This document shows, piece by piece, positions 20,831 to 24,955 of a stretch of 48,229 nt of DNA (within the stretch, counting starts at the first letter, position 1; each line of letters opens with the position of its first letter). The position numbers were made by a program, and so were the translations under genes. Where the stretch lies: the NCBI GenBank assembly GCA_021801385.1, contig JAJYYC010000022.1:1-48229 (forward strand). The letters are read 5' to 3'. The notes beneath the pieces were generated by a model. It did not search any database. It was not told the origin of the DNA and saw only the letters and a program-made list of their open reading frames with translations. The stretch is from Microcaldota archaeon (lineage in GTDB: Archaea > Micrarchaeota > Micrarchaeia > Micrarchaeales > Micrarchaeaceae).

Positions 20831-21319
20831 TCATTCCTTCTTTATGAGCAGCACCGATGCATGCGCATCTATGCACTCCAGCCTTCCTGCCGTTCCGACC
20901 CTCTCACCGGTCTTCGCCTTTATATTTATATTGCTGACCGGTAGTCCCATGACAGATGCTATGCTCCTGCGCATCTGCAATATGTATGGAGCGAGCTTGG
21001 GTTCTTGCGCTATCACAGTAGAATCCACATTAGATATCTCGTATCCATCGTGCTCAGCAAGCCTGCAGGCCTCTTTCAGAAATATCGAACTTGGAACGCC
21101 TTTGTACTTCGGATCCGTGTCCGGAAAGTGGCTCCCAATGTCTCCAAGCGCAAGTGCGCCTATTACCGCATCCGTTATCGCATGCAGCAGCACGTCGGCA
21201 TCGCTGTGGCCCTCAAGACCGAGCCGGTATGGTATCTCTATTCCGCCGATTATCATTTTACGCCCTTCTGCAAGTCGGTGGCGGTCGTGCCCTTCGCCAA
21301 TCCTAATAATCGGCTCCAT
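20831..21319 (-). CDS. ispF: 2-C-methyl-D-erythritol 2,4-cyclodiphosphate synthase
   Basis: IspF cyclises CDP-methylerythritol 2-phosphate to MEcPP in the bacterial/plastid MEP isoprenoid pathway. The 162-aa protein is full length. It keeps the metal site (Asp12 and His14 in GEGHDRH, His38 in EGHSDADV), the ALGDIGSHFPDTDPKYKG segment, NVDSTVIAQEPKL, and the C-terminal INIKAKTGERVG. Archaea make isoprenoids from mevalonate, so an intact ispF is surprising. The ispF-cysS order echoes bacterial ispD-ispF...cysS clusters, which suggests transfer. No other MEP gene is in the window. The ATG has no obvious ribosome-binding motif. The protein is a homotrimer in known cases. Confidence 0.93.
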   Translation of the reverse strand: MEPIIRIGEGHDRHRLAEGRKMIIGGIEIPYRLGLEGHSDADVLLHAITDAVIGALALGDIGSHFPDTDPKYKGVPSSIFLKEACRLAEHDGYEISNVDSTVIAQEPKLAPYILQMRRSIASVMGLPVSNINIKAKTGERVGTAGRLECIDAHASVLLIKKE

Positions 21320-21438: not shown

Positions 21439-22692
21439 ATGGCAGGAAACATTGAAAAACAGGCGACAGAATCCGCCAAGGCGGTCTCAGGCATAGAACT
21501 CAGAAAGGATGACACCGCTGATAGTAAATCTAGAGATGCTGGAGTGCGCAGTTTTACCCCTAAAGAAAAATTGACAAGGGAGGAGCTCGAAAGGATGTAT
21601 ATAGAGCAGAGGATGAGCATAAAAAGAATAGCTAATGAGACAGATACTACGCCAAAAACAGTGATAAAGTATCTACGAAGTGCAGGTATAAGAACCCGCA
21701 AAAGCGTTGAGGCAAAGCGGCCAGCTAGTTTTAAGAAGCCGACAGATGATGAGATAAAAGACCTTTATTTACAACAGGGCATCGGCAAAAAAGAGCTGAT
21801 GAAGCGTTTTAGGGTCGGAGGCAAGACCTTAGACCAATGGTTAAAGGAATCAGGGATAAGGAAAAGGACGCCTTCAGAGGCGATGTTGCCGCCATGGTTC
21901 AAAACGCCAGATAAAAAGACGCTCGAGAAATGGTATGTAGAAATTGGCATGAGCGCAAATGCGATTGCAAAAAATATGGGAATTTCTCATGTAACAGTAA
22001 TTAATCTGCTTAAGAAAGCAGGCATAAAGCGCCGCCAGAAAGGCCTGCCTGAAGGATTCGTAAATCCCACCGAAGATGCTCTTAGGGAGATGTATGAAGG
22101 CCAGAGGATGACCAAGAAGAGAATGGCAGAAGTACTAGGAGTTTCAGTAAGCAAAGTTCATAGTATGTTAAAAAAAACAGAGATCAGAATAAGGGGCGTG
22201 TCGGAGGCGAAGTTGCCTAAGGGGTTTGTGAAGCCCACCGATACAGAACTAAAGGATTGGTATGTGGAAGGGCATATGACAGCCAAAGAGATAGCCAAAC
22301 GGCTTAATGTCAGCCCTGGCATAATCTTTAAAATGCTAAAAGATGCAGGCATACAGGTCAGGGGCGTGTCTGAGGCGAAATTGCCGAAGGGGTTTGTGAA
22401 ACCCACCGATACAGAACTAAAGGATTGGTATGTGGAAGGGCATATGACAGCCAAAGAGATAGCCAAACGGCTTAATGTCAGCTCTGAGTTAGTCGTTAAA
22501 ATGTTAAAAGATGCAGACATACAGGTCAGGGGCGTGTCTGAGGCGAAATTGCCGAAGGGGTTTGTGAAGCCCACTGAAGAGGAACTTAATAAGATGCGTG
22601 AAAAGCGCATGAGCATTGTGGATATAGCTAAACAGATCGGGGTTTCCAAAGGGACTGTTGCCAAACTTCTTAAAGATGCTGGGATAAAATGA
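21439..22692 (+). CDS. Protein of seven tandem helix-turn-helix units (candidate modular DNA-binding protein)
   Basis: This is a 417-aa protein. After a charged N-terminus (1-44) come seven units of about 50-56 residues. Each has the order PT-x-x-E-L-x-x-x-Y, a turn helix such as MTAKEIAKRLNVS, a recognition helix and the end LLKDAGI-x-x-R. Linkers of the form GVSEAKLPKGFVKPT join units 4-7. Recognition helices all differ (TPKTVIKYL, GGKTLDQWL, SHVTVINLL, SVSKVHSML, SPGIIFKML, SSELVVKML, SKGTVAKLL). Units 5 and 6 are recent 168-bp duplicates. No catalytic domain is attached, so a DNA-binding role is likely: either regulation, or chromatin or replication binding. It is on its own, with a TATA-like ATTATAAGTATTT about 30-40 bp before the ATG. 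Confidence 0.85.
   Translation: MAGNIEKQATESAKAVSGIELRKDDTADSKSRDAGVRSFTPKEKLTREELERMYIEQRMSIKRIANETDTTPKTVIKYLRSAGIRTRKSVEAKRPASFKKPTDDEIKDLYLQQGIGKKELMKRFRVGGKTLDQWLKESGIRKRTPSEAMLPPWFKTPDKKTLEKWYVEIGMSANAIAKNMGISHVTVINLLKKAGIKRRQKGLPEGFVNPTEDALREMYEGQRMTKKRMAEVLGVSVSKVHSMLKKTEIRIRGVSEAKLPKGFVKPTDTELKDWYVEGHMTAKEIAKRLNVSPGIIFKMLKDAGIQVRGVSEAKLPKGFVKPTDTELKDWYVEGHMTAKEIAKRLNVSSELVVKMLKDADIQVRGVSEAKLPKGFVKPTEEELNKMREKRMSIVDIAKQIGVSKGTVAKLLKDAGIK
22193..22574 (+). repeat. 168-bp tandem repeat (two full units plus the start of a third)
   Basis: GGGGCGTGTC begins at 22193 (with one mismatch at the tenth base), 22361 and 22529, each 168 bp apart. Between the first two units, the linker plus first two helices differ at only four silent positions. 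The five codons 22315-22329 versus 22483-22497 all differ in amino acid. Confidence 0.9.
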
Positions 22693-22846: not shown

Positions 22847-22880
22847 AAGATATTTAACAACCATTCAAGAAAATAGATGT

Positions 22881-22978
22881 GCAGGGATGGCGGAGCTTGG
22901 TCAAACGCGGCAGACTCAAGATCTGTTGGCTTAGGCCTACGGGAGTTCAAAAGTCATGAACAAATCTCCCTCCCTGCA
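22881..22978 (+). tRNA. trnL: tRNA-Leu (anticodon CAA) with a 13-nt intron in the T loop
   Basis: The acceptor stem GCAGGGA/TCCCTGC, D-arm (AGCTTGGTCAAA), anticodon stem-loop CAGA-CTCAAGA-TCTG and a long variable arm identify a Leu tRNA reading UUG. The T stem GGGAG/CTCCC encloses 20 nt instead of 7. Removing 13 nt restores TTCAAAT and gives 85 nt, the same length as tRNA-Leu(CAG) in this window. The exact splice point is ambiguous over four registers because AAA flanks both sides; 22951-22963 is one choice. GTTC (22945-22948) can pair with GAAC (22958-22961), with AAA following each strand, resembling a relaxed bulge-helix-bulge. CCA is not encoded. A TATA box lies about 25-30 bp upstream. 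Confidence 0.9.
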
Positions 22979-23005
22979 TCATTTTTCAAAGAATCGGGTG
23001 ATAAG

Positions 23006-23677
23006 ATGGCAAAACCAAGATCAAATAAAAAGACTACAAAGAGCCAAAAGCCGAAACTCAAAGAATCGAAGATGTTTGAGATACCGAATTATGCACAGAC
23101 TGAGGAGTTCACCAGCTCGGCCGCATGCGCAATGATGGCGCTCAAATACCTTAACAGCGGCATGAAGCTCAGGAAGGAGCTTGAATTCGAAATATGGCAG
23201 GAAGCGGTCCATGGCAGCACATGGCACGGCTCCAGATATGGCATAGCGTATGCGCTTGCAAAGCGCGGAGCGAAGCCGCACATACTCACCAACGTAAAGG
23301 ATGAGGGCTACGAGAAGAGGCTTGCAGTATATGAGGGCATAAACCTTGACACACTATCAGCATCTTTCAATGAGGTGAAGAAGAAGGCGGAGGATCTGAA
23401 GGTCAAAGAGGAGTACGGGATAACCACACTCAACACCATCAGGAAGCAGCTCAACGCAGGCAGGATCCCGATAGTGCTCGTCAATGGAAGCGTACTCAAC
23501 TCATACCTTGAACCTGGCCCGCACTGGGTTGTTGTCAAGGGATATGACAAAGACACATTCTACATAAACGACCCTTACTCTGACAGCACGATAGCGATGG
23601 AGCCTGATGTGTTCAAGGGTGCGATCGGTTTCGAAAACGAATACAGCACGATAAGCGTTAGCGCAAGGAAGAGCTAG
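23006..23677 (+). CDS. Peptidase C39-like protein, probably without the catalytic Cys
   Basis: This 223-aa soluble protein begins with a Lys-rich tail. It then has EIPNYAQTEEFTSSAACAMMALKYL, the helix that in C39-like papain-fold proteins normally reads T-C-G-P-A; here Ser-Ser-Ala replaces Cys-Gly-Pro. The later parts of the fold remain: GSRYGIAYALAKRGAKPHIL, LNAGRIPIVLVNGSVLN, His in GPHWVVVKGYD and Asp in FYINDPY. The His/Asp pair is thus kept while the nucleophile appears to be Ser or lost. It may be a binding protein, a transferase-like member or an atypical hydrolase. GGTGATAAG precedes the ATG with the usual five-base spacing. The longer frame into the tRNA is not real. Confidence 0.72.
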   Translation: MAKPRSNKKTTKSQKPKLKESKMFEIPNYAQTEEFTSSAACAMMALKYLNSGMKLRKELEFEIWQEAVHGSTWHGSRYGIAYALAKRGAKPHILTNVKDEGYEKRLAVYEGINLDTLSASFNEVKKKAEDLKVKEEYGITTLNTIRKQLNAGRIPIVLVNGSVLNSYLEPGPHWVVVKGYDKDTFYINDPYSDSTIAMEPDVFKGAIGFENEYSTISVSARKS

Positions 23678-23743
23678 TAGCTTAAATATTCTTTTGATTT
23701 TGACAGGTTAGTTTGGACAGCCCTAAGGTTTTAAGTGGATAAA

Positions 23744-24955
23744 ATGGATGATCCTGTTAGTCTGAAAAACGAGATAGCAGAACGGCTTGCCGCGCTTGAC
23801 AGCGCAAGCCAAGAGGATATAAAGAAACTGATGATCTTGGCAAAAAGAATGGACAGACATTCATTGGATGCTAATACATCGCAATACTTGGCCGCTGCGG
23901 ATATAATGGGCCGATTTGGCATCACAGAGCATTGCTGGTCTAGCGTTTCTAATTTTGTGAAAAAGGCTGTTTATGCGAAAAAGATAGGCATGCCTTTCGA
24001 AAAATTCATAAGTATTACAGCGGTTTATCCTGTACTGTTGAACAAAAGCGTAGAAGGGCTCGAAGAGAGACGAAGGAGCCTGGGTATGGCAAAAGATGAA
24101 TTCGGACGATTGATCATAAAATTTCCAAATGTGATAAATGCAGGCATTGGTAAATTCAGGGACGCGAGGATTCACCTGGGATTAGGCATAGACGATTACA
24201 GGAAGCTCATGACAAAATTCCCTAGACTTATAAGCTATAGCAATGAGCGATTTGACGATATAAAGAGATACTTTAATCTTAATGACAATGAATTCAGGAG
24301 ACTGTTGCATAGATTTCCGCAGATAGTCAGCTTTGGCATCGCTAAGCTTGAGGATAAGCGGGCATATTTAGGGTTAGATACAGAGGAGTTCAGAACTGTT
24401 GTCTTAAAGGCTCCTCAAATAATCGGTTTAAGCTTCAAAAACCTTGAGGAGAAAAGAGAGTACCTGAATATTAGCAAAGAGGAATTCAGGAATCTGATCT
24501 TGGGCCTTCCAACCATAATTTTCTTTAGTAGGGAAAATATGGATCAGAAGTTCAGGTTTTATGAATCAAGGATAGGTATCAGAAGAGAAGAAATAATCGG
24601 TTATACATGCAGCAAAGGGGCAAAACAGAAAGATGCTTCAGCCGATCATCAAGTCAGATTTAGTAGGGTGTGCATGTCCTATGCTTTGCATGGCAGGGTG
24701 ATGCCCAGATATGTGACCTACAGGCATATGCTCAGAAAGAAGGGCATGGATTTCAATCCTGACAAGTTTTTGGGCATCGTGAAACGTAATGAAAGCGATT
24801 TCATATCGCAGATAGATCATAGGCTGCGCGATAAATCTCTCGAAAGCGATGCGAAAGTAGAGAGTCTAAAGCCTTATTATGAACGCGCAAAGCATCTATG
24901 CGAGCTTATGAGGAAACGCGGTAGTACAACTTTGAGATCTGTCCAGGCGAACTAA
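23744..24955 (+). CDS. mTERF-like helical repeat protein
   Basis: This is a protein of about 403 aa. After an N-terminal helical region come at least six units of exactly 32 residues (residues about 98-290, numbering from the in-frame GTG at 23735). Examples begin FPRLISYSNERFDDI, FPQIVSFGIAKLEDK and APQIIGLSFKNLEEK, each followed by a helix such as LGLDTEEFRTVVLK. The pattern (hydrophobic-P-x-hydrophobic-hydrophobic, then L..KR.YLgl, then eEfr.li) is that of the mitochondrial transcription termination factor (mTERF) family, whose superhelix binds nucleic acid. The C-terminal 110 residues (PRYVTYRHMLRKKGMDF) also fit the family's end. It may bind DNA or RNA for transcription or RNA processing (inference). 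ATG 23744 or GTG 23735 can be the start; GTGGAT precedes the ATG. Confidence 0.75.
   Translation: MDDPVSLKNEIAERLAALDSASQEDIKKLMILAKRMDRHSLDANTSQYLAAADIMGRFGITEHCWSSVSNFVKKAVYAKKIGMPFEKFISITAVYPVLLNKSVEGLEERRRSLGMAKDEFGRLIIKFPNVINAGIGKFRDARIHLGLGIDDYRKLMTKFPRLISYSNERFDDIKRYFNLNDNEFRRLLHRFPQIVSFGIAKLEDKRAYLGLDTEEFRTVVLKAPQIIGLSFKNLEEKREYLNISKEEFRNLILGLPTIIFFSRENMDQKFRFYESRIGIRREEIIGYTCSKGAKQKDASADHQVRFSRVCMSYALHGRVMPRYVTYRHMLRKKGMDFNPDKFLGIVKRNESDFISQIDHRLRDKSLESDAKVESLKPYYERAKHLCELMRKRGSTTLRSVQAN

Follow-up and report, generated by a model that had tools for sequence, protein, structure and literature searches.

We identified a gene for a protein of seven tandem helix-turn-helix (HTH) units in the window (the whole 48,229-nucleotide stretch of Micrarchaeota DNA analysed here), in which a recently duplicated pair of units carries a tight cluster of differences at the start of the putative recognition helix. 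Our preferred interpretation, to which we give a probability of roughly 0.6, is that the protein is a sequence-specific DNA binder whose HTH modules are renewed by duplication and recombination, and that it acts as a Cbp1-like occupancy factor on a repeated or mobile target.

A protein built of seven HTH units

The reading frame runs from an ATG to a TGA codon, and alignment of its repeats gave seven HTH units at a spacing of 53-56 aa (n=7 units), the same number that an earlier note had read from the DNA (Table 1). AlphaFold2, run on the single sequence, predicted three helices in every unit with a mean pLDDT of 66 and a pTM of 0.23; at this moderate confidence the model can be trusted for the fold of a single unit but not for the way in which the units are arranged. 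Modelling of unit 5 with the remaining units as its alignment returned the same three helices. A Pfam search gave 109 families at E<=1, with HTH families as the top matches and a weak match to the TnsD family at aa 47-95. No nuclease domain (HNH, Vsr/EDxHD or GIY-YIG) was present in the 25 of 109 Pfam families listed, and the protein outside the seven units and the disordered tail has no room for one. A TniQ core with zinc finger was likewise absent from the N-terminus, where aa 1-43 are predicted to be disordered and are followed only by HTH sequence. As judged from the domain searches and the model, the predicted protein is a tandem HTH array without any other domain. No further copy of the unit DNA was found in the source genome (77% complete, 26 contigs).

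Table 1 Features of the seven-unit array gene, with window coordinates, and tandem HTH arrays of other Micrarchaeota genomes
Feature	Position or genome	Strand	Basis or description
Seven-unit tandem HTH array protein gene, 417 aa	21439..22692	+	Open frame; Pfam HTH families; 21 predicted helices
N-terminal tail, aa 1-43, predicted disordered	21439..21567	+	pLDDT < 50 over aa 1-42
HTH unit 1 and linker	21568..21735	+	Unit alignment; helices 47-56, 61-67, 72-81
HTH unit 2 and linker	21736..21900	+	Unit alignment; helices 103-112, 117-124, 128-137
HTH unit 3 and shortened linker	21901..22062	+	Unit alignment; helices 159-168, 173-180, 184-193
HTH unit 4 and linker	22063..22230	+	Unit alignment; helices 212-221, 226-233, 237-246
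HTH unit 5 and linker	22231..22398	+	Unit alignment; helices 268-277, 282-289, 293-302
HTH unit 6 and linker, 168-bp duplicate of unit 5	22399..22566	+	Unit alignment; helices 324-333, 338-345, 349-358
HTH unit 7, last, one residue shorter, up to stop codon	22567..22689	+	Unit alignment; helices 380-388, 393-400, 404-413
81-bp block, helices 1-2 of unit 5, exact match to 22402-22482 (unit 6)	22234..22314	+	Offset 168 bp; longest-run p = 0.003
First five helix-3 codons of unit 5, PGIIF	22315..22329	+	Differs from unit 6 at six bases and in all five residues
First five helix-3 codons of unit 6, SELVV	22483..22497	+	Comparison with unit 5
L035	G226		Six units
L006	G212		Six units; paralogue of L002
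L002	G212		Three clear units plus more diverged ones; paralogue of L006
L005	G197		Four to five units
L069	G059		Eight to nine units
L067	G087		Five units

The array gene lies among genes that are of interest in themselves. On the minus strand at 20831-21319 is a gene for IspF (YgbB, MEP pathway), here in an archaeon; among 14 related genomes just one other has it, with 34% identity. A tRNA-Leu gene (22881-22978, plus strand; CAA anticodon by eye) was matched by Rfam at 43.7 bits and missed by ARAGORN, and its T-loop holds an insertion of ~14 nt that is possibly an intron. The ORF listed at 22877-23677 would begin inside this tRNA gene, so that the real start is probably 23006. An mTERF-repeat protein (PF02536, E 7e-19), of a family usually regarded as eukaryotic, is encoded at 23735-24955 on the plus strand, two genes downstream from the array; its gene is absent in genus mates, and similar repeats occur at contig ends in genomes G006 and G010.

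Differences between units 5 and 6 cluster at the start of helix 3

Units 5 and 6 are the only recent module pair in the protein. The earlier note had described them as 168-bp duplicates with four silent differences over the linker and first two helices, and these were confirmed at 22203, 22212, 22218 and 22233; since helices 1 and 2 are unchanged between the two units, all four sit in the linker. On the 5' side of the linker an I/V codon difference occurs at 22189-22191. The note had also reported six base differences that alter all five residues in the codons just beyond helix 2, and this description proved exact: PGIIF is replaced by SELVV. In both the full-length and single-unit models these residues are positions 1-5 of helix 3, in keeping with the proposed location at the start of the recognition helix. 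Further 3', the units differ by one extra silent change (22336) and a G/D replacement at 22349. Of the five replacements in the PGIIF/SELVV patch, I to L and I to V are conservative. By canonical HTH numbering we take P/S, G/E and F/V to be at exposed positions that contact DNA in known HTH folds, with I/L intermediate and I/V at a buried core position.

The clustering of the unit 5/6 differences exceeds chance in statistics that were all applied post hoc: a scan for six changes within 15 bp gave p = 0.009, the longest identical run p = 0.003, and the comparison of the patch (6 non-silent, 0 silent) with the remainder (3 and 6) a Fisher p = 0.028. The same pair tested at silent sites only was not significant (p = 0.06-0.15). 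The linkers that precede units 5, 6 and 7 form a graded series of silent changes.

Tandem HTH arrays in other Micrarchaeota

No orthologue of the gene was found in 300 other Micrarchaeota genomes, three of the same genus included. This search covered 59 other relatives first and then the phylum (301 genomes, the source included), and its matches were to other arrays only. A genome-contig search with the seven-unit protein gave no match, nor did viral-contig searches with this protein and with the L035 and L006 proteins. Arrays were present in five further Micrarchaeota genomes (Table 1), with linkers unlike those of the seven-unit protein; one of them, G226, belongs to the same family (record JAGWFU010000043.1, Candidatus Micrarchaeota). 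The loci L042 (G043) and L040 (G212) were left out of this count as their architectures look different, and the survey is incomplete, since arrays built of other types of HTH sequence could have escaped it. A literature search for Micrarchaeota HTH arrays yielded nothing relevant.

Two of the arrays, L005 and L069, match in their N-terminal winged-HTH-like regions (E 1e-4) and differ in number of units (4-5 versus 8-9) and in helix 3, differences that point in the direction of the earlier note. In G212 each of the two array genes is preceded by a related gene of 434-479 aa without a Pfam match. The array genes themselves have an 85-bp stretch of 99% identity near their 3' part and are diverged over the remainder, which suggests a recent exchange.

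We compared the variability of helix-3 contact positions with that of the helix-1/2 surface. Across all seven units of the window protein there was no excess (0.72 versus 0.74), whereas in the six other arrays the contact positions scored 0.62-0.86 and the helix-1/2 surface 0.31-0.63. A Wilcoxon test across the seven arrays, which are not wholly independent because L006 and L002 are paralogues, gave p = 0.03, and the most variable column over the seven arrays was helix 3 position 1 (0.89). Constant helices 1 and 2 with a varying helix 3 are clear in units 5 and 6 and in L035, L005 and L067 but not across all seven units of the window protein.

These results divide the proposal that units are duplicated and then selected for new DNA specificity. 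Its first half stands. An excess of non-silent change at the recognition helix was found in the unit 5/6 pair, by the post hoc test above, and not across the seven units, so that selection on the reading helix of this gene is weakly supported (Fisher p = 0.03, no excess over seven units). Duplication with subsequent selection was not demonstrated, and selection for differing reading heads is plausible but not proven.

Some sister arrays are probable recombination mosaics

The array in the same-family genome G226, L035, carries exact DNA blocks over helices 1 and 2 of units 3/4 (84 bp), 3/5 (81 bp) and 4/5 (67 bp), and its helix 3 and linkers are strongly diverged between units 3, 4 and 5, silent sites included. 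Third positions differ at 0-1 of 24 sites in this scaffold versus 6-12 of 26 outside it (Fisher p = 0.0001, 0.1 and 0.005 for the 84-, 81- and 67-bp blocks). Silent sites that are intact in one half-unit and heavily changed in the other are not expected from point mutation and indicate recombination or gene conversion. To judge from these sequences, the L035 pattern is a recombination mosaic and not plain point mutation.

Traces of the same kind were seen elsewhere. In L067, units 1/2 have a common 33-bp helix-2 block with different helix 3, and units 1/4 and 2/5 have entire helix-3 segments in common; in L005, units 1/2 have a 30-bp run in common. No significant mosaic was detected in L006. 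The unit 5/6 pair of the window protein fits the mosaic picture, with the boundary at the turn between helices 2 and 3, but its silent sites taken alone do not establish a mosaic (p = 0.06-0.15). At the level of their DNA, the related genomes show HTH modules apparently swapped and homogenised through recombination. A literature search for tandem HTH proteins with gene conversion found no paper.

Comparison with known DNA-binding arrays

The best NCBIfam match of the window protein was HTH_Cbp1 (NF040595; 4e-22), at 78.6 bits against a curated cut-off of 140, which was reached in 0 of the 301 Micrarchaeota genomes. PDB entry 2lvs, a CRISPR repeat binding protein solved by NMR, was matched by sequence (E 0.004) and, of the fold matches listed, had the top probability (0.82). 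No Cas1 above cut-off was found in the source genome (G000, 77% complete), G001-3, G226, G197 or G212; a sub-cutoff Cas1 match in the source genome contains three stops and is probably due to chance. Cbp1 binds CRISPR repeats and brings in Cren7, a protein that to our knowledge is not expected in Micrarchaeota.

Cbp1 is reported to have three tandem HTHs that arose by domain duplication and follow one another on the CRISPR repeat in 5' to 3' order, with a 21-bp motif and strong sites also in ISC1229 transposons, and Cbp2 has two HTHs (PMC10883916). The statement in the earlier note that no archaeal family of this design was known has thus to be corrected, and Cbp1 and Cbp2 are the nearest described family. 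Both are archaeal proteins, nearly all tandem HTH from duplication and ordered on one DNA site; recent unit turnover with helix-3 change, as seen here, is not described for them in the part of PMC10883916 consulted. They have three and two units versus seven, the window protein scores below the family cut-off, and Cbp1 is linked to CRISPR whereas the array-bearing genomes tested were without Cas1 above cut-off. Given the missing Cas1 partner, the score below cut-off and the seven units, the window protein is not a member of the Cbp1 family, but by analogy it likely works like Cbp1.

The process resembles that in the vertebrate PRDM9 and KRAB zinc-finger arrays, where DNA-reading modules in tandem combine a homogenised scaffold with variable contact residues and where unit number shifts through duplication and gene conversion (PMC3890296). 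Those arrays differ in their C2H2 zinc finger fold and meiotic role, the likeness does not imply common descent, and the process is seen here by comparing single genomes. TnsD, a target selector of Tn7-like transposons, has multiple HTH domains in its C-terminal part (PMC10293859) and resembles the window protein in this and in the weak Pfam match, but the window protein is without a zinc finger or TniQ core and no Tn7 genes were found nearby. A plasmid protein of Euzebya pacifica (WP_216826637) consists, like the window protein, of tandem HTH units and nothing else; it is bacterial, has six units and other linkers, and is 27% identical.

HTH-array homing endonucleases (HNH or EDxHD/Vsr) have similar HTH strings at similar spacing, which serve them for targeting, but end in a nuclease, which the window protein does not. 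An example is gp23 of Haloarchaeal virus HJTV-4 (L021:3953-4927), annotated as hypothetical, which has four tandem HTH units and an HNH nuclease and directly follows gp22 (annotated as a bacteriocin, probably a capsid gene); from its sequence it is likely a free-standing homing endonuclease. A further HTH string is found in VAP7 QDB73333.1, a Hef-like enzyme. Within Micrarchaeota, L003, L029 and L004 (in G297, G285 and G277) join two HTH units to a Vsr/MTES_1575-like nuclease through SEA linkers resembling those of the window protein. By eye, a Hel308-like helicase gene and a Bud32-like kinase gene flank the nuclease gene of L003 and of L004, and the L004 frame is interrupted by stops. Long tandem repeats that look by eye like the homing-endonuclease-associated HNH_repeat were noticed in L055 (G247:C9), L054 (G175:C5) and L058 (G031:C46); L055 joins HTH units to such an array in an ORF of > 700 aa, and L054 adjoins a helicase-like gene.

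Alternative explanations

The main rival to our interpretation, one with real support although we consider it unlikely, is that the array is the targeting half of a homing endonuclease or a transposon target selector, guiding a mobile element with a catalytic partner that has been lost or is separate. The closest phage and plasmid matches include nuclease-fused HTH arrays, among them HJTV-4 gp23 beside its capsid gene and the VAP7 enzyme; L003 and L029 show similar SEA linkers in nuclease-bearing Micrarchaeota proteins; the TnsD match falls in a family with multiple HTH domains (PMC10293859); and the gene lies directly upstream of a tRNA-Leu gene and is missing from same-genus genomes. Against this, neither the ORF nor the scanned neighbours contain a nuclease, transposase or TniQ-like domain, and the genome yielded no second copy of the units. 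Improbable in our judgement is a history without recombination, in which units were duplicated and positive selection then acted on point mutations in the recognition helix. It would account for the purely non-silent patch (Fisher p = 0.028), for its location at helix 3 positions 1-5 and for position 1 as the most variable column, but six changes in 15 bp after 81 unchanged bp are hard to obtain by independent mutations, the divergent patches of L035 are strongly changed at silent sites too, and the window units have no helix-3 excess.

Two explanations concern the origin of the unit 5/6 differences. In a genome as fragmented and incomplete as this one, two strain variants of one unit could have been joined in assembly to give a false tandem; the graded silent changes in the linkers before units 5, 6 and 7, the like internal repeats in independent arrays and a frame that is open throughout make this very unlikely. 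Diversity-generating retroelements are known in DPANN archaea and could leave a patch as tightly bounded as that in helix 3, which would then owe its variation to such an element and not to inter-unit recombination. No reverse transcriptase was found in the source genome (77% complete) or in G212, however, and the rest of the source genome yielded no copy of the unit DNA that could be a template repeat; we regard this origin as extremely improbable.

Proposed function and implications

In our preferred interpretation, the seven three-helix modules on flexible linkers would form a sequence-specific DNA-binding string. The third helix of each module would most likely enter a major groove, with several of these helices on the DNA at once, and the string may read, module by module, either a single long composite site or a number of short sites; by analogy with Cbp1, whose three HTHs cover a motif of ~21 bp, seven units would span ~50 bp. 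HTH-like units can bind proteins too. The array would grow and change as its modules exchange sequence with one another, through unequal recombination and through gene conversion. Because recombination would keep helices 1 and 2 identical while helix-3 segments are kept or imported, the reading heads would come to differ on a shared scaffold. A likely role is that of an occupancy factor, either a repressor or a local chromatin-like binder, on repeated or mobile DNA.

A more general proposal, which we make only tentatively and hold to be rather unlikely, is that the Micrarchaeota HTH arrays are re-programmable readers. Recombination would shuffle helix-3 segments on a fixed scaffold and rapidly give new long-site specificities against mobile or viral DNA, making the arrays an archaeal counterpart of PRDM9 and KRAB proteins with a code of one module for one subsite. 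Most HTH domains work alone or as pairs. A long array of them with homogenised modules and differing reading helices would suggest that DNA targeting evolves rapidly in DPANN archaea; in the array-bearing genomes tested, no Cas1 above cut-off was found. Such an array would also supply natural data on a modular HTH code and possibly a new DNA-targeting scaffold, and it would extend a Cbp1-like design beyond the Sulfolobales and Desulfurococcales into a further phylum of archaea.
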